Positions 12,957 to 20,101 of a stretch of 64,000 nt of DNA are shown one piece after another; position 1 is the stretch's first letter; the number at the start of each line of letters is the position of its first letter. This DNA comes from Actinacidiphila rubida (GTDB lineage: Bacteria; Actinomycetota; Actinomycetes; Streptomycetales; Streptomycetaceae), in NCBI RefSeq assembly GCF_900110255.1, contig NZ_FODD01000041.1:1-64000 (forward strand). The letters are read 5' to 3'. The notes beneath the pieces were generated by a model, which saw only the letters and a list, made by a program, of their open reading frames with translations, was not told the DNA's origin and did no database searches. The position numbers and the translations under genes are program-made.

Positions 12957-14639
12957 TCAGCCGAGAGAGATCTCGGCGCGGGTGGTGCCGGCCCGGGGAT
13001 GCCGGGCGGTGACCGAGGCGACGGTCCCGGAGGGGGCGCGGACCGTCCACTCCACGGCGGTCAGGTCCGGCGTGCCCGGGTCGTGGCCCCACCACGTGGT
13101 GGACGACAGGGTCCCGCTCCTGCCCTCCAACTGGCCGAGACGCTCGACGCGTTCACCGGTGACCAGCTCGGCGCCGTCCGGCAGTGCGATCTCCGCGGCC
13201 AGTTCCCCGGCCACCTGGCGGTTCAGCGCGGTGCGCGTGACGTACGTGGGCAGCCAGCCGGTGTTGCCGACGACCAGCCGGATCCGGTGGACGCCGGGCG
13301 CGACCTCGGCGGCGGACAGCCGCCGCACTTCCAGGCGCGGCGAGGCCAGCGCCTGGAAGACCACCCAGTCGGTGTGCGGGGCCACCTCGGCCTCGATCCG
13401 GTCCATCGGCGGGTTGTACCAGTAGTTGATCATGTCCCAGCCGCCGAGCTCCACGGTCCCCAACTGCGGGTGCTCGAACGGGTACCAGTCGACGAAGCCC
13501 TTGCCGTCGAGCTCGGTGTCGCTCCACTTGATCATCCGCAGGTCGTCCGCGACCGGGTGGTCGATCAGCCAGCGCGAGGCGTGGTACGACTCGATGCCGG
13601 CCGCCCGCTGCGGGCTCCAGAACTCGGTGATCCAGGCGAAGATGCCCAACTGGTGGTAGTACCAGCCGAGTTGTCCGCCCCGGAAGTCCGCCGCCGGGTC
13701 GTGCTTGAGGTCCTGGAAGGACATCACGTCGTAACCGGTGAGCTCCGCCGCCTTGGCACCGAAGACCTCGTACACGTGCTGGTCCGGCCCGGGCAGCCGC
13801 ACGTCGGCGTTCATCGGCGGGAACAGGTGGAGGCCGCCGAAGGTGTGGCAGGTGACGTACCCGGTGATGTTGGGCCGGTCGGTGACGGCCCGCAGCACCG
13901 CCTGCGTCTCCGGCTCCGAGCCGGGGAACGGGCCCGCGTTGCGCGGCAGCGACGGTGCCGCCTCCCAGTCCGTCGGCAGGTTCTGGCCCAGGTCGAGGCC
14001 CTCGACCGGCTCCGCGACCTCGACCACGTCACCGCGGTAGCCGGTGATGTCGCCCTCCTGGAAAAGCCGGAAGTAGTCGCCGCCGACCTCGTCGGGTTCG
14101 CGCGGGACCAGCAGCCGGGGCTCGTCCGGGTGCGTCTTCCACGGCCCGTCGGCGTCGCGCATCCGCATGAACAGCGCCCGCCCGTCGCCGTCCACGTCCC
14201 GCAACTGCAGGCCAGGCTCAGCGTCCGGGCTCGGGTGCGGGCGCACGCTGGAGCGGATGAAGCGGCCCTCGGCCATCGCGTGCTCGTGCCCGTCGGGGTT
14301 GAGCCGCGGCACGACGTAGAGCGTGCGGGTGTCCAGCAGCCGGGTCACCCGCTCGTCGCTCCCGTGGCCGGACAGCAGGTGGTGCACGAGGTGCAGGGCC
14401 GCGAAGCACGACGACCACTCGGTGCCGTGGATCCCGGCCTCGACGAAGTAGGCCGGCTTCTCGGCGGCGGGCCCGGTCGCGGTGTTGGTGAGGGTGAGCA
14501 GCCAGACGTCCCGCCCTTCCCACGAGCGCCCCACGCTCTCCAGCGCCGCGAGGTCCGGACGGCTGTCCGTCCAGTCGCGCAGCAGCGCGGTCAACTCGTC
14601 GTGGACGTAGAACCGGTCGAACGTCAACGGGCGGATCAT
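12957..14639 (-). CDS. M14 family zinc carboxypeptidase
   Basis: About 560 residues. The metal-binding HxxE of M14 peptidases is seen as GIHGTEW (His71, Glu74). RLNPDGHEHA carries the conserved NPDG segment, CHTFGG holds the third zinc histidine, and ITEFWSP contains the catalytic glutamate. No signal peptide is visible with the start at 14639 (MIRPLTFDRF), so it looks cytoplasmic; upstream in-frame sequence is not protein-like. The C-terminal ~150 residues form an extra beta-rich domain. It would remove C-terminal residues from peptides, fitting the peptide transporter nearby. Confidence 0.85.
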   Translation of the reverse strand: MIRPLTFDRFYVHDELTALLRDWTDSRPDLAALESVGRSWEGRDVWLLTLTNTATGPAAEKPAYFVEAGIHGTEWSSCFAALHLVHHLLSGHGSDERVTRLLDTRTLYVVPRLNPDGHEHAMAEGRFIRSSVRPHPSPDAEPGLQLRDVDGDGRALFMRMRDADGPWKTHPDEPRLLVPREPDEVGGDYFRLFQEGDITGYRGDVVEVAEPVEGLDLGQNLPTDWEAAPSLPRNAGPFPGSEPETQAVLRAVTDRPNITGYVTCHTFGGLHLFPPMNADVRLPGPDQHVYEVFGAKAAELTGYDVMSFQDLKHDPAADFRGGQLGWYYHQLGIFAWITEFWSPQRAAGIESYHASRWLIDHPVADDLRMIKWSDTELDGKGFVDWYPFEHPQLGTVELGGWDMINYWYNPPMDRIEAEVAPHTDWVVFQALASPRLEVRRLSAAEVAPGVHRIRLVVGNTGWLPTYVTRTALNRQVAGELAAEIALPDGAELVTGERVERLGQLEGRSGTLSSTTWWGHDPGTPDLTAVEWTVRAPSGTVASVTARHPRAGTTRAEISLG

Positions 14640-14890
14640 GCGGTGTGTCCTCGCAATCGCACGGCGGCAACCTGGCAGGCGCGGCCAGTCTGCGCGGGGT
14701 GCGCACACCGTGCTTTGGGCGTGCGGCCAATCTTTCCCCGCTGAGTTCTCGCCCGCCGCCAATCACACGACGCCGGCCCGGCGGCCACAGTGCTCCCTGA
14801 CCGAGAACGCGGATGACCGAGGTCATTCCTACCTGATTGCCTGCCGGGCCGTTGCGGCGCCTTCGCCCCGGCCGAGATTGGACCCGCGCG

Positions 14891-15610
14891 ATGACAGCCA
14901 CAGCGGACCTCGGCACTCCCGAGATCCACCACCAGCACCGCGACGTGACCGGCGGCTGGCTGCGTCCGGCCACCTTCGGCGTGGTGGACGGCCTGGTGTC
15001 GAACTTCGCCCTGGTCGCCGGCGTGGTCGGCGGCGGCGCCGGCGCGCACGCCGTCGTCCTCACCGGACTGGCCGGCCTCACCGCCGGCGCCTGCTCGATG
15101 GCCACCGGCGAGTTCGTCTCGGTGTCGTCGCAGAACGAACTGGCGCAGGCCGAGATCGCGCGCGAGCGGCGCGAACTGGCGACCAACCCCCAGGAGGAGC
15201 TGCGCGAGCTGACCCTGGCCTACGAGGCCAAGGGCGTGCGGCCGGAGCTGGCCGCGGAGATCGCGCGCGAGCTGACCGCGGACCCCGAGGTCGCCTGGCG
15301 GGTGCACGTCCGGGAGGAACTGGGCGTCGACCCGGACGACCTGCCCTCGGGATGGACGGCGGCGGCCTCCTCCTTCGCGGCGTTCGCACTGGGCGCCCTC
15401 GTGCCGCTGCTGCCCTTCTTCTTCGGCGCCTCCACCCTCGCGGCCGCGCTGATCGCCAGCTCCGCGGCCCTGATCGTCACCGGCGGGCTGACGGCCAGAC
15501 TGACCGCGCGCTCCGAGTGGTTCGGCGCGAGCCGGCAGCTGGTGCTGGGCGGCCTGTCGGCCGCGGTGACCTTCGGGGTGGGACTGCTGGTCGGTACGGG
15601 GGTGTCGTAA
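14891..15610 (+). CDS. VIT1/CCC1-family divalent metal transporter
   Basis: The 239-residue protein starts at ATG 14891, after a non-homologous open extension. It has the VIT1/CCC1 signature: a first TM helix with FGVVDGLVSNFALVAGV, the second helix SMATGEFVSVSSQNE, a cytoplasmic acidic stretch rich in Glu (residues ~75-125) that binds metals in the plant VIT1 family, and three C-terminal TM helices. Family members move Fe2+/Mn2+ out of the cytosol. It opens an operon with a fused electron-transfer flavoprotein and an ExxE membrane protein, a set suggesting metal transport linked to redox (inference). Confidence 0.88.
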   Translation: MTATADLGTPEIHHQHRDVTGGWLRPATFGVVDGLVSNFALVAGVVGGGAGAHAVVLTGLAGLTAGACSMATGEFVSVSSQNELAQAEIARERRELATNPQEELRELTLAYEAKGVRPELAAEIARELTADPEVAWRVHVREELGVDPDDLPSGWTAAASSFAAFALGALVPLLPFFFGASTLAAALIASSAALIVTGGLTARLTARSEWFGASRQLVLGGLSAAVTFGVGLLVGTGVS

Positions 15611-15613
15611 CCG

Positions 15614-17569
15614 ATGGCGACGACGGACACCGCCGGCGGCGGGGGCGCCCAGGACGCACCGCAGGCGAAGCGCGCGCCGGAAGCGGCGCGCCCGCCTGCT
15701 GCGGCACCGCCCGCGGACGCCACCGCCGGGGACCGGCGTCCGCTGCACACGGTCGCGCTGGTCAAGCAGGTGCCGCTGGGCGACCATCCCGGCACGCTGG
15801 ACGCCCAGGGACGGCTGCGCAGGGACGGCTTCGCCACCGAGCTGAACCCCTGGTGCCGCCGCGCGGTGACCCGGGCCGTCGAACTCGGCGCGGCGGCCGG
15901 CGGCCGCACCACGGTGATCACGATGGGACCGCCGGCCGCCGCCGATGTCCTGCGCGAGGCGCTGGCCTGCGGGGCGGACGAGGGCCTGCTGGTGTCGGAC
16001 CCCGAACTCGCCGGCGCCGACTGCCTGGTGACCGCCAAGGCGCTGGCCGCCGCCGTCCGGGCGCTGGGCCCGGTGGATCTGGTGCTCGTGGGACGCAGCA
16101 CCGTGGACGGCGGTACCGGCACGGTCGGGCCCATGGTCGCCGAGCTGCTCGGCCTGCCCTTCGCCGGGCCGGCCCTGACCATCGACACGGCCGGCGCCGA
16201 CACGCTGCGCGTGGTGCTCCAGCTCGACGCCGTCACCGAGACCGCCGAACTCGCCCTTCCCGCCGTCCTCGCCGTCGCCGAGCGGTCCTGCCGTCCGGCG
16301 AAGGCGGCTCCCGGCACGTGGCCCGACCCGGCGCCGATCCGCACGCTCACGGCGGACCGGCTCAGCGGCAGCCGGCCGGGCACCGCCAGCCCGACCCGGG
16401 TGGACCGCGTCCGCTATGCCGCCCCCACCCGCCGCCCGGTGCTGCTGTCCGGCACCCCCGCCGAGCAGGCCGCCCGGGCCGTCGAGCTGGTCACCGCACG
16501 TGCGGCCGCGCACGACGGGCCCGGCCCGCGCACGGCGGTCCCGGCGCCGAACGCCGCCACGCCGTGGACCGGTCACTCCCGCGCGGCCCTTCCCGGCCCC
16601 GCCGTCCTGGCGGTGACCGGCAGCCCCGACGACGGCGGTCGCGCGCTGCTCGGCGAGGCTGCCGGGCTCGCCGCCGCCATCGGCGGCCACGTCGTGGCCG
16701 CCACCCCGCCCGCCGACCCCGTCGCGCTCGCCGCCTGGGGGGCAGACGCCGCCCTGCGGTTCACCGGCACCGAGCCCCGCCCGGTGGCGGCCGCCCTCGC
16801 CGCCCTCGTCCGCGGCAGCGCCGCCCTTCCCTGGGCGGTGCTCGGCGGAGCGACGCCCTGGGACCGGGAGGTCCTGGCCAGGCTGGCCGTGCACCTGGAC
16901 ACCGGGCTGCTCTCGGATCTGACCGGCGTCGGGACCCGCCCCGGCCGCGAGGGCCGGGTCCTGCTGGCGGGCGGCAAGCCGGCGTCCAACGGCAGCCATG
17001 CCGACGTCAGCAGCACCGGACAGCCGCAGCTCGCCACCCTGCGCACCGGCGCCTTCGCGCCGCGCGTCCCGCGCGCCCTCCTCGCGCCGATCCCCGTCGC
17101 GGCCCTCGACGTGCCGCACGACCCGCACGTGTGGCGCTGGGGCCGCGAGGCCGAGGACGACTTCGACGCGCTCGAGCGGGCCGGCACGGTGATCGGTCTC
17201 GGGGCCGGTGTCGACGCGGGCCGGTACGCGGAGATCGAGCCGCTGCGCGCCGTGCTCGGTGCGGAGCTGGCCGCGACCCGCAAGGTCACCGACGCCGGAG
17301 CGCTCGCCCACTGCCGCCAACTGGGCGTCACCGGGCGGGCCGTGGCGCCCCGGCTGTATCTGGCGATCGGGATCTCCGGAAGTCCCCACCACCTGGCCGG
17401 AGTCGACCGCGCCGGCACCGTCGTGGCGGTCAACAGCGACCCGGACGCACCCGTGTTCGCCCACTGCGACGTCGGACTGGTCGCGGACTGGCAGGACGTG
17501 GTCCCCGCGCTGACCGCCGCGTTCCACCGGACGCCGCGGCCCGCGCCCGCGGTGGCCGCCGCACCCTGA
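15614..17569 (+). CDS. Fused electron transfer flavoprotein, beta and alpha subunits (EtfB-EtfA)
   Basis: The 651-residue chain joins both ETF subunits. Residues ~48-260 are EtfB-like (VALVKQVPLGD, LNPWCRRAV, VGRSTVDGGTGTVGP). After a linker, ~330-640 is EtfA-like, with an N-terminal Rossmann half and a C-terminal FAD domain containing GVTGRAVAPRLYLAIGISG, HLAGV and DPDAPVF. A disordered Ala/Pro-rich leader precedes the first domain. ETFs carry electrons from flavin dehydrogenases to a quinone reductase. No dehydrogenase or FixC/FixX partner is adjacent; the neighbours are membrane metal-transport-like genes. It lies 3 bases after the VIT1-like gene. Confidence 0.88.
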   Translation: MATTDTAGGGGAQDAPQAKRAPEAARPPAAAPPADATAGDRRPLHTVALVKQVPLGDHPGTLDAQGRLRRDGFATELNPWCRRAVTRAVELGAAAGGRTTVITMGPPAAADVLREALACGADEGLLVSDPELAGADCLVTAKALAAAVRALGPVDLVLVGRSTVDGGTGTVGPMVAELLGLPFAGPALTIDTAGADTLRVVLQLDAVTETAELALPAVLAVAERSCRPAKAAPGTWPDPAPIRTLTADRLSGSRPGTASPTRVDRVRYAAPTRRPVLLSGTPAEQAARAVELVTARAAAHDGPGPRTAVPAPNAATPWTGHSRAALPGPAVLAVTGSPDDGGRALLGEAAGLAAAIGGHVVAATPPADPVALAAWGADAALRFTGTEPRPVAAALAALVRGSAALPWAVLGGATPWDREVLARLAVHLDTGLLSDLTGVGTRPGREGRVLLAGGKPASNGSHADVSSTGQPQLATLRTGAFAPRVPRALLAPIPVAALDVPHDPHVWRWGREAEDDFDALERAGTVIGLGAGVDAGRYAEIEPLRAVLGAELAATRKVTDAGALAHCRQLGVTGRAVAPRLYLAIGISGSPHHLAGVDRAGTVVAVNSDPDAPVFAHCDVGLVADWQDVVPALTAAFHRTPRPAPAVAAAP

Positions 17570-17677
17570 CCCGGCCGCGTGGTCCGCCCGCCGGCACCGG
17601 CCCGGCCGGTGTCACCCTTCCCGTACTGCCTCCCGCCGTCCCCGGGTCCCTTCCGGGCCTCACCCAAGGAGTTCACC

Positions 17678-17734
17678 GTGTCGTCTCGCACGTTCACCCC
17701 ACGTACCGGCCGCCCCGGAGGTGGTTGCCCGTGA
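17678..17734 (+). CDS. Possible 18-residue leader peptide coupled to the next gene
   Basis: A GTG start at 17678 has an excellent ribosome-binding site AAGGAG at 17666-17671 (6-nt spacing) and opens an 18-codon frame ending in TGA at 17732-17734, which overlaps the GTG start (17731) of the membrane protein as GTGA. The membrane-protein start has no good ribosome-binding site of its own. The peptide is basic, Gly/Thr-rich and has one Cys near the end. It may be a translational coupler or a regulatory leader; it could also mark an earlier, frameshifted N-terminus. Confidence 0.4.
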   Translation: MSSRTFTPRTGRPGGGCP

Positions 17735-18543
17735 CCGGCCTCGTCCTCGTCCTCACCGTCTTCCTGGCCTGCGCCGTCGAAGCGGTGGAGGCCCTGACCA
17801 TCGTGCTGGCGGCGGGCACCAGCCGGAACTGGCGCTCGGCCCTGCAGGGCACCGCCGCGGCCGTGGCGGCCCTCGCCGTGACCGTGGCGGCGCTCGGGCC
17901 GGCCATCGGGCTGATCCCGTTCCAGGCCTTGCGCCTGGTGATCGGCGCCCTGCTGCTGGTCTTCGGGCTGCAGTGGCTGCGCAAGGCGATCCTGCGGGCG
18001 TCGGGTTACAAGGCGCTGCACGACGAGGCCGACGCCTACGCCAAGGAGGTCGCGTCGGCGAGCGCCGCGGCCGGCGGCGGGCGCGGCGTCGTCAGCGACT
18101 GGTACGCCTTCACCCTGTCCTTCAAGGGCGTCTTCCTCGAAGGGCTCGAAGTCGCCTTCATCGTCGTGACGTTCGGCAACAACCAGGGCAGCGTGCCGCT
18201 CGCGGTCCTCGGCGCGGTCGTCGCGGTCGTGGCGGTCATCGGTGTGGGCCTCGCGGTCCGCGCGCCGCTGGCCAGGGTGCCGGAGAACAGCATGAAGTTC
18301 GCCGTCGGCATCATGCTCACCGCCTTCGGCACGTTCTGGTCCGCCGAGGGAGCCGGTGTCGAATGGCCCGGCGCCGACGCGGCCCTGCTGGTCCTGATCC
18401 CGGCGATCGCGGTGCTGGGGCTCGGCACCGCCGTGCTGATGCGCCGCACCAAGACCGCCGGCGCCGGTGCCCCCGCGGTCGCCGACCCGGCGTCCGCGGC
18501 GCCGACGGCACCGTCCCCGACGGCGAAGGGAAGCCTGTCGTGA
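17731..18543 (+). CDS. FTR1-like polytopic membrane protein with two ExxE motifs (COG4280-like)
   Basis: About 270 residues and seven or so TM segments, built as two similar halves. Each half has a helix with a paired-glutamate motif: VEAVEALT (Glu17, Glu20) and LEGLEVAF (Glu137, Glu140). This is reminiscent of the RExxE iron-binding motifs of FTR1 permeases, though the flanking arginine is missing in the first. The C-terminal tail is Ala/Pro-rich and probably disordered. I infer a cation-handling membrane protein. Start GTG at 17731, coupled to the leader ORF. The exact family should be checked. Confidence 0.65.
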   Translation: MTGLVLVLTVFLACAVEAVEALTIVLAAGTSRNWRSALQGTAAAVAALAVTVAALGPAIGLIPFQALRLVIGALLLVFGLQWLRKAILRASGYKALHDEADAYAKEVASASAAAGGGRGVVSDWYAFTLSFKGVFLEGLEVAFIVVTFGNNQGSVPLAVLGAVVAVVAVIGVGLAVRAPLARVPENSMKFAVGIMLTAFGTFWSAEGAGVEWPGADAALLVLIPAIAVLGLGTAVLMRRTKTAGAGAPAVADPASAAPTAPSPTAKGSLS

Positions 18544-18746
18544 AGTGGATCCGCTCGTTCGCACTGTTCTGGTACGACTTCGTCGTCGGCGACGACTGGC
18601 GGGTCGCGGCCGGGGTGGCGGTGGCGCTGGGCGCGACCGCGGGCCTGGTCCACGGCGCCGGCGTGAACGCCTGGTGGCTGCTGCCCGTCGCGGTCGTCGC
18701 CCTTCTCGGGCTGTCCCTGCGGCGTGCGGTCGCCGCGGCCCGCTGA
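18540..18746 (+). CDS. Small two-TM membrane protein of the ETF/metal operon
   Basis: 68 residues from GTG at 18540, overlapping the preceding stop as GTGA. It has a short amphipathic start (VKWIRSFALFWYDFVVGDDW) and two hydrophobic segments (residues ~22-42 and ~46-60), ending in an Arg-rich tail. It matches no family I recognise. Tight coupling implies it acts with the ExxE membrane protein, perhaps as an accessory subunit. Confidence 0.65.
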   Translation: MKWIRSFALFWYDFVVGDDWRVAAGVAVALGATAGLVHGAGVNAWWLLPVAVVALLGLSLRRAVAAAR

Positions 18747-18777
18747 CCACCGCCCCGCCCGTTCCGCCCGGTGCGCC

Positions 18778-18808
18778 CGGGGCGGCGGGGCACGGCCCCG
18801 CCGCCCCG
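18778..18808. terminator. Strong hairpin terminator, end of the ETF/metal operon
   Basis: Perfect 14-bp stem CGGGGCGGCGGGGC and complement with a 3-nt loop, 32 bases after the stop. It lies between convergent genes. Confidence 0.8.
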
Positions 18809-18910
18809 CCCCCGGCGGTGGCAGGACGCCCTGGCTCGGTCAGCGGCCTCCACCGCCTCGCGTTGCCCCCTGCCGGACAGCCGGCAGGATCACGAAGCGC
18901 GCGCCCGTGC

Positions 18911-20101
18911 TCAGAATCCGCCGTTCAGGTCGTACCAGTCCTGGTCGTAGATCTGGCCGGGGGCGAACCATCCCTTGCCGTTGCCCGCGTACAACCGCAA
19001 CTCGTTGGCGGAGTCGCCGGCATAGGGGTTGTCGAAGCCGTCCTGCGTGGCGGCCATCAGGTCGTTGTGCCCGTCGGCGTTGACGTCACCGACGCTGATG
19101 AAGGAGCTCATCACGTTCCAGCCGGCGCCGATGAGCCTGCGGGCCGCGAAGCCGCCCTTGCCGGTGCCGGGGTAGAACCACAGCTTGCCCAGTTCGCGGG
19201 CCAGCAGGTCGGGATGGCCGTCGCCGTTGAGGTCGCCGGGGCCGGTGGTGGCGCTGACGGACTTCCAGCCGGTGTCGATCTTCTTCCGGGCGGCGAACGC
19301 GCCGTGTCCCGTGCCCGGGTACAGCCACAGGGTGCCCGCGGTGTCGCGGGCCACCAGGTCGCCGCGCCCGTCAGCGGTGACGTCTCCGACGGCGCTGATG
19401 GTCGTCATCGTGTTCCAGCCGGCGCCGATCAGGTGGCGTGCGCCGAACTTGCCGTACCCGTTGCCGGGGTAGAACCACAGCTTCCCGGTGGTGTCGCGGG
19501 CGAGGAGGTCCTCGCGGCCGTCGCCGTTGAGGTCGCCGTGCCGGGTGAGGGCCGTCATCACGTTCCAGCCGGCGCCGATGAGCGTGCCTGCGCGGGTGCC
19601 CGAGACGAACCACAGCCGGCCACTGCGGTCCCGGGACAGAAGATCGGCCCGCCGGTCACCGTTCAGGTCACCGAAGCCGGCCGCCTTCGAGGCCTGGTCG
19701 GAATACCACTCCACGTACGGGGTGTCGTCGCAGTCCCGTTCGTTGCGGACCAGCTTGATCGAGCTGATCTTCCTGTCCAGGCTGGAGTCGTACATGGTGA
19801 CGCCGTTGCCCCGGGGCTCGGCGAAGAAGCTCCCGCTGTAGCTCGCACCGTCGAACCAGCAGGCGACTCCGGAGGTCCGGTTGTAGTAGGACCGGATCCT
19901 GTTGTCCCAGGTGCCCAACGTGGCCATGGACACCTTGGTCTTCAGCATCGAACCCGTGGCGTTCAGCCCCGACCACCCGCAGGCGTAGCCCGCCGGACAG
20001 TCGCTCCCCGGGCTGCTGGCCTGCGCCGGCGCGGCCAGCGAGCCCACCGCGAGTGCTGCACTGCCTGCCGCGACAGCGAGCCGCCTCACGCTTCGTTTCA
20101 T
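18911..20101 (-). CDS. Secreted peptidase-inhibitor-I36-like / FG-GAP (VCBS) repeat protein
   Basis: 396 residues from ATG at 20101. A Sec signal peptide (KRSVRRLAVAAGSAALAVGS, cleavage after AQA) leads into an SSF-I36-like cysteine domain (CPAGYACGWSGLN, residues ~34-130). After it come about five FG-GAP/VCBS repeats, each with the calcium-binding-like pattern GDLNGDGxxDLLARD and LWFYPGTG (residues ~140-390). The repeats build a beta-propeller. Such fusions are common in Streptomyces and thought to be extracellular adhesion or inhibitor modules; the target is not known. Monocistronic, convergent to the preceding operon. Confidence 0.85.
   Translation of the reverse strand: MKRSVRRLAVAAGSAALAVGSLAAPAQASSPGSDCPAGYACGWSGLNATGSMLKTKVSMATLGTWDNRIRSYYNRTSGVACWFDGASYSGSFFAEPRGNGVTMYDSSLDRKISSIKLVRNERDCDDTPYVEWYSDQASKAAGFGDLNGDRRADLLSRDRSGRLWFVSGTRAGTLIGAGWNVMTALTRHGDLNGDGREDLLARDTTGKLWFYPGNGYGKFGARHLIGAGWNTMTTISAVGDVTADGRGDLVARDTAGTLWLYPGTGHGAFAARKKIDTGWKSVSATTGPGDLNGDGHPDLLARELGKLWFYPGTGKGGFAARRLIGAGWNVMSSFISVGDVNADGHNDLMAATQDGFDNPYAGDSANELRLYAGNGKGWFAPGQIYDQDWYDLNGGF

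Follow-up and report, generated by a model that had tools for sequence, protein, structure and literature searches.

A probable Actinacidiphila operon joining a VIT1-family transporter, a fused electron-transfer flavoprotein and an OFeT/GDT1-like membrane protein with a small partner

Transporters of the VIT1 type move cytosolic divalent metal cations out against protons. Other systems close to the one considered here include MbfA, which passages of PMC7762939 present as a VIT-type exporter needing an attached ferroxidase domain, the FTR1/EfeU proteins, defined by the REGLE (RExxE) motif according to passages of PMC8065604, and the GDT1/UPF0016 proteins, defined by the motif E-x-G-D-(R/K)-(S/T) according to passages of PMC7380456. 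Here we analyse a stretch of 64,000 nucleotides of Actinacidiphila rubida (contig NZ_FODD01000041.1, positions 1 to 64,000; hereafter the window), drawn from the 9.0-Mb genome (G000) of this soil actinomycete, in which a likely operon of four co-directional genes at 14891-18746 on the + strand brings relatives of such transporters together with an electron-transfer flavoprotein (ETF) made as a single chain. Our tentative reading, to which we give a probability of about 0.4, is that the operon handles a divalent transition metal (Fe2+ and/or Mn2+) with the ETF as redox partner of the cargo, and that it was assembled from two modules in one lineage.

Four genes and the families they resemble

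The four open reading frames (ORFs), the gaps, the overlap and a short leader ORF were all found where a sequence-only reading of this DNA, which had first pointed to the operon, placed them. The operon joins two modules, a VIT1-family gene with an ETF gene (VIT-ETF) and an OFeT-like gene with the gene of a small membrane protein (the OFeT-like pair). A 3-base gap separates the first two genes, a 161-base spacer the second and third, and the last two share a 4-base GTGA overlap.

14891..15610, + strand: VIT1-family divalent metal transporter, 239 residues (PF01988 at 3.8e-66; phmmer match to 6iu3 at 1.4e-22)
15614..17569, + strand: EtfB-EtfA fusion, 651 residues (PF01012, PF00766; stretches of NCBIfam models; ETF matches in the PDB)
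17731..18543, + strand: OFeT_1-related membrane protein, 270 residues (PF16955 at 36.7 bits; AlphaFold2 model with a predicted local distance difference test score of 89.1; internal repeat at z 7.0)
17779..17790, + strand: first ExxE of that protein, residues 17-20 (VEAVE), in helix 1, invariant in 57 of 57 rows
18139..18150, + strand: second ExxE, residues 137-140 (LEGLE), in the first helix of repeat 2, invariant in 57 of 57 rows
18540..18746, + strand: 68-residue membrane protein with the motif FWYDFVVGDDW, constant partner of the OFeT-like gene

The VIT1-family protein matches PF01988 over profile positions 1-213 of 214 at 223.4 bits (cut-off 28.1), and the two glutamate pairs of its cytosolic cluster align with glutamate pairs of the VIT1 structure 6iu3, which we take, from their roles in EgVIT1, to be the cytosolic metal-binding glutamates. 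By Pfam family and by this cluster it is thus like VIT1/CCC1 (EgVIT1, 6iu3). It differs from MbfA, since Pfam finds no ferritin-like domain in it and a separate ETF gene comes next instead.

The second protein shares with known ETFs both subunit domains and the FAD (flavin adenine dinucleotide) domain but is a single chain with EtfB first, consisting of an EtfB part (about residues 47-292), a linker and an EtfA part (about 335-635) that holds the FAD domain at 520-597 (PF01012, 155.3 bits, 2e-45; PF00766, 72.7 bits, 2.4e-20). FAD-domain residues, among them TRKVTD, Q569, G571, T573, N607 and D609, are kept in all seven aligned fusions, and the fusion is predicted to bind a flavin. Its beta nucleotide loop reads DGG, as in all four ETFs of the full operon (DGN in the diverged copy L132 described below); because fusions outside the genus read DAD, DSD or DGD (the last in L176), the beta site may be altered. 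The EtfB part is nearest to 5ol2 and 4kpu in the PDB, which we take to be bifurcating ETFs, yet one loop aspartate is replaced, and no ferredoxin or quinone partner of a bifurcating ETF lies among the ten flanking genes. Neither an acyl-CoA dehydrogenase, an ETF-quinone reductase nor an oxidase was found by Pfam among those ten, in keeping with the earlier remark that the usual partners are missing. The fusion scores under all NCBIfam cut-offs shown, and a mycofactocin-associated ETF was rejected by score (NF038209, 105 of 240 bits; TIGR04503, 64 of 200 bits). Since ordinary EtfA-like and EtfB-like pieces (38-42% identity) are present elsewhere in G000, the fusion is an extra ETF.

The OFeT-like protein exceeds the OFeT_1 cut-off of 26.9 bits, its best stretch covering profile positions 105-184 of 207, although in a six-frame genome search the same place reaches 21.6 bits, under the cut-off. 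We aligned 57 rows, comprising the window, 52 loci from congeners and genome contigs (mostly actinobacterial, some from metagenome-assembled genomes labelled otherwise) and four alphaproteobacterial plasmid loci. OFeT_1 is matched at E<=1e-4 by 56 of these 57 relatives and GDT1 Pfam models by 8 (best E 2.5e-07). Residues E17, E20, E137 and E140 are kept throughout, the two ExxE pairs standing 120 residues apart and preceded in every row by valine (first) and leucine (second), so that the arginine of RExxE/REGLE is absent; one row has RExxE elsewhere within its first 200 residues. The halves of the protein align with each other at a score of 70 (shuffle mean 30.5; none of 1000 shuffles as high), and the AlphaFold model (predicted template-modelling score 0.73) has seven long helices, which we divide into 3+3+1, each repeat opening with a helix that carries one ExxE. 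Foldseek found no match to this model in the PDB at E<=0.001, and VIA structure alignment gave Z of at most 7.9 among 260 chains, to generic transporters, with no FTR1, OFeT or GDT1 structure among the rows shown; both fold searches are uninformative. Nor did a profile built from the 57 relatives hit any PDB chain at E<=5.

With OFeT/FTR1/EfeU proteins, then, the window protein shares the Pfam match, the seven helices and a doubled ExxE, but it lacks the REGLE arginine, has a constant 68-residue partner and has no oxidase among the ten flanking genes scanned. With GDT1/TMEM165/UPF0016 proteins it shares two three-helix repeats with an acidic pair, but the motif E-x-G-D-(R/K)-(S/T) occurs in none of the 57 relatives; TMEM165/GDT1 family is the annotation given to 15 of 20 listed plasmid homologues. 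On these features we name it an OFeT/GDT1-like transporter and place it in its own subfamily. The earlier FTR1-like label therefore stands as regards the OFeT_1 match and the invariant ExxE but fails on the missing arginine, and the profile search places the protein over the OFeT cut-off rather than in an unrelated family.

Distribution of the two modules

Of the 35 genomes of the genus, 15 carry the OFeT-like protein, at 18 places that were all read with their flanks. At four of these places it is preceded by VIT and ETF: the window, L022 (G005), L106 (G014) and L107 (G026), the last three with ETFs 71-72% identical to that of the window. Four genes upstream of the operon are common to all four loci; because no common gene was found downstream of the 68-residue gene in the stretches read (home-made gene calls, blastp E<=1e-8), the conserved block ends there. 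The VIT-ETF start, with its usual upstream gene next to it, also stands in a fifth genome, G015 (71% complete), where it runs to a contig end (L169); this genome carries in addition a second, diverged VIT-ETF (L132; ETF 54-56% identical, 4-base ATGA overlap) on a 14-kb contig without an OFeT-like match. On L132 (1718-10276) the VIT-ETF is followed in the same direction by tldD-like and pmbA/tldD-family genes, and an aconitase gene lies divergent upstream. VIT comes first, and tightly, in all six copies (five with the 3-base gap, one with the ATGA overlap). Given this coupling and an L132 without the OFeT-like pair, VIT would be a likelier partner of the ETF than the FTR1-like protein.

Beyond the genus we drew on the best 80 of at least 445 relatives of the OFeT-like protein, so that fractions from this set and the congeners describe close relatives only. 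The full combination was seen at one of the 80 loci, in the same genus, though many of the 80 end at contig ends. Of 91 family genomes, a query with the EtfB part hit 3 at E<=1e-25, each of them Actinacidiphila. In class samples it hit 3 of 108 genomes at that threshold, and a shorter piece hit 3 of 256 at E<=1e-32, the window's own genome being among the hits each time. An EtfB query at E<=1e-20 reached 58 of 110 genomes of the phylum, and the fusion as query reached 34 of the 35 of the genus; most of these matches are ordinary separate EtfA and EtfB (31-44% identity). One of seven loci read from the phylum matches, L162, is a fusion; in G246 (L171) EtfB and EtfA matches lie in separate places, and plasmids gave no ETF match at E<=1e-40. 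Single-chain EtfB-EtfA proteins with 34-47% identity across almost their whole length were found in G245, G398 and G123 (another class), that of G398 running to a contig end. No VIT, OFeT-like or 68-residue match lies in the 10-18 kb read around these three, whose neighbours are an enoyl-CoA hydratase and a major facilitator superfamily transporter (L172), ABC (ATP-binding cassette) uptake genes (L162, a low-G+C locus read by ORF list) and CoA-transferase III, short-chain dehydrogenase, Rieske and luciferase-like genes (L176). The EtfB-EtfA fusion is therefore not special to the operon, while in these samples the VIT partnership is; the survey proposed earlier thus found VIT-ETF recurring in the genus but related fusions outside it without either neighbour.

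Such neighbourhoods, and the restriction of VIT-ETF to one genus, favour an explanation that makes the fused ETF an ordinary catabolic electron carrier, working for a dehydrogenase whose gene lies elsewhere and placed beside VIT in one lineage by chance or for shared regulation, without contact with metal. We hold this to be a real possibility, if clearly short of an even chance, given that VIT-ETF recurs in two diverged forms with different downstream genes, in each of which VIT comes first and the coupling is tight. Somewhat doubtful, in our view, is the explanation that VIT-ETF is the functional unit, the ETF feeding iron redox at VIT, with the OFeT-like pair an independent metal importer or exporter placed behind it. 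It would account for L132, where tldD-pmbA-like genes stand in place of the pair, and for a second OFeT-like pair in the window's own genome (L105 8878-9866, G000:C76; 82% and 96% identity), with no VIT, ETF, ChrB or ABC match in the 19.5 kb read; but the four-gene order is kept in four species and the conserved block ends after the 68-residue gene.

The pair itself is constant. The 68-residue protein follows the OFeT-like gene at all 73 genome-scan loci (of the 80) with enough flank and at all 16 congener loci (L067 and L119 being one locus in both sets). It has no Pfam match, and G17, D18 and D19 are present in all 89 distinct sequences scored; at the four plasmid loci a clearly diverged ORF of 60-74 residues follows the gene, with GDD in none. 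Mostly the pair occurs without VIT or ETF. Among the 67 distinct loci flanked on each side by 1.7 kb or more, 24 have ChrB within 2 kb: in 18 it is convergent and downstream, in 4 divergent and upstream, and in 2 placed otherwise. Further away it matches at none of 96 loci (953 kb). An FbpC-like ATPase lies upstream at 19 of the 67, and both occur at 14. Examples of a ChrB_N (PF20229) gene within 2 kb are L023, L024, L040, L043, L056, L112 and L113, and it is also seen near the pair on Mesorhizobium and Cereibacter plasmids (L139, L141). ChrB_N has no match in the four full-operon genomes, and 7 of the 35 genus genomes have one. The association of ChrB with the pair was not found among titles and opening lines of abstracts in the open-licence PubMed Central (PMC) literature searched.

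In the linked ABC operon (L024) genes for a binding protein, permease and ATPase precede the pair, an arrangement resembling ferric-iron and phosphonate systems (FbpABC/PhnSTU-like). It was rejected as a proven iron importer, for the FbpA metal-ligand positions are not kept in an alignment of its FbpA/HitA-like binding protein, whose NCBIfam matches (phosphonate, thiamine) are all under cut-off. Some pairs adjoin PAP2, BacA or DedA genes (L139 5180-5956, L142 5158-5886, L140 7102-7728, L050, L061, L073, L092, L098), which we take to be families of the undecaprenyl-phosphate cycle, and a lipid-carrier link of the pair is possible. A membrane protein with a GETxxDF-like motif, presumably COG4705-like, lies 1-8 kb from the pair in eight loci (L114, L120, L039, L050, L065, L092, L095, L098). 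Forty other neighbour proteins were scanned, three operon ETFs and 16 ABC ATPases being left out; the commonest families were ABC ATPase (4), ChrB_N (3) and PAP2 (3). Neighbours were called with a home-made codon-position caller, and 21 of 95 distinct loci without an OFeT-like call were dropped from the choice of neighbours.

That the pair serves another substrate or stress, such as an oxyanion (for example chromate) or a lipid carrier, and is merely co-transcribed would fit ChrB within 2 kb and not beyond, the PAP2, BacA or DedA genes beside some copies and a linked binding protein without the FbpA ligands in the alignment, but is unlikely given OFeT_1 matches in 56 of 57 relatives, an invariant ExxE and the VIT neighbour in the window.

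Regulatory signals and flanking genes

Three further features belong to the operon and its borders.

14640..14890, no strand: intergenic region before VIT, with conserved blocks in an alignment of the window, L022, L106, L107 and L169
17678..17734, + strand: leader ORF of 18 codons (from the sequence, the equal layout in L022, L106 and L107, and an enrichment scan)
18778..18808, + strand: 14-bp G+C hairpin after the last gene, a possible if weak terminator (RNA fold of 18744-18830, z -2.1)

The leader ORF runs from GTG at 17678 to TGA at 17734, with a Shine-Dalgarno-like AAGGAG in front and a stop that overlaps the start of the OFeT-like gene. An 18-codon ORF with a ribosome-binding sequence and overlapping stop is readable at the equal place in all four operon species, while its sequence is hardly conserved among them. 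ORFs of this kind, preceded by a Shine-Dalgarno sequence and ending at the start codon, were found in 17 of the 100 distinct regions scanned and at 39 of 655 gene starts used as controls; they are modestly enriched, and not universal, before OFeT-like genes. Translational coupling would be the simplest reading.

In the intergenic region several blocks are conserved across the five loci, and VIT stands divergent from a Peptidase_M14 gene (PF00246). A riboswitch or leader RNA in window 14200-19200 was rejected, the one candidate, a match to ASdes on the antisense strand within the ETF gene, staying below threshold (24.9 bits where 40 are needed, E 0.019). Scans for sigma-70 promoters and T-run terminators gave no match and are uninformative for a high-G+C actinomycete; the hairpin, which has no T-run and modest significance, was missed by the terminator scan. 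Upstream of solitary OFeT-like genes in five congeners (L108-L111, L114) we observed alike CTACAGNNCTGTAGAC-like dyads, which to us are reminiscent of BlaI/CopY-type operators.

Pfam identifies upstream of the operon a PucR-type regulator, an FMN_bind_2 protein, an amidohydrolase and the Peptidase_M14 protein. Just downstream, on the opposite strand at 18911-20047, lies a gene with an Inhibitor_I36 (peptidase-inhibitor) domain and FG-GAP repeats, and window 34618-63998 seems to hold carbohydrate-degradation genes and sugar ABC transporters, judged from the gene list alone.

The preferred reading and what it would mean

On the reading we prefer, that of a metal-handling operon with the ETF as redox partner of the cargo, VIT1 would export cytosolic divalent metal. 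The fused ETF would draw electrons, most likely from a soluble dehydrogenase, and keep or make iron ferrous at VIT's cytosolic glutamate domain, from which it would be exported. The OFeT/GDT1-like protein with its 68-residue partner would also transport metal, as a second system, with the paired ExxE helices forming the cation site; it would be an added cistron of the same transcript with its own leader ORF and ribosome site. The families, the order kept in four species, the six VIT-ETF couplings, the FAD residues kept in seven of seven fusions and the ExxE kept in 57 of 57 rows support this reading, as do the metal or oxyanion contexts of the OFeT-like pair beside ChrB and FbpABC-like operons and the precedent of MbfA (in passages of PMC7762939). 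The fuller proposal, an ETF recruited as dedicated redox partner of a VIT-type exporter, its flavin electrons setting the metal's valence, alongside a second, two-subunit ExxE transporter, we consider quite unlikely.

Several points weigh against the reading we prefer. The co-occurrence on which the sequence-only reading staked its case was not lost within the genus, the four genes standing together in one order in four species, but the set turned up in no genome outside the genus, and common descent alone may account for part of the conservation, because the upstream genes are also syntenic. Co-transcription is likely from the spacing, the ETF could plausibly exchange electrons with either membrane protein, and the metal substrates would follow from family knowledge. 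No Rfam element, the Mn2+ yybP-ykoY element for example, reached its gathering score in the seven loci scanned, and no metal-regulator site was identified at the operon. No recurrent redox family appeared among the neighbours of the OFeT-like pair (25 of 50 families shown). Of the redox-linked metal transport proposed at the outset, metal handling is likely in view of OFeT_1, VIT1 and the invariant ExxE, but the link to redox is weakened by an OFeT-like protein mostly found without an ETF.

The operon is limited to one lineage in our samples and built from known families. In agreement with the earlier claim, a combination of VIT, ETF and OFeT-like genes was not found in titles, opening lines of abstracts or passages (including PMC6085437 and PMC2751784) of the open-licence PMC literature; nor did searches of it for COG4280, for ETF with vacuolar iron transporter and operon, or for mycofactocin with electron transfer flavoprotein find anything.

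If the ETF does serve metal transporters, ETFs would gain a client outside the dehydrogenases, and bacterial iron export would gain a reductive step matching the oxidative one of MbfA. To our knowledge this would be the first ETF with a metal ion or metal transporter as client rather than a dehydrogenase or quinone. The survey also defines a widespread and apparently uncharacterised two-gene transporter, the OFeT-like protein with its GDDW small protein. Many actinobacterial loci tie it to ChrB and to an FbpABC/PhnSTU-like ABC operon, and on some alphaproteobacterial plasmids it has ChrB or PAP2 genes beside it.

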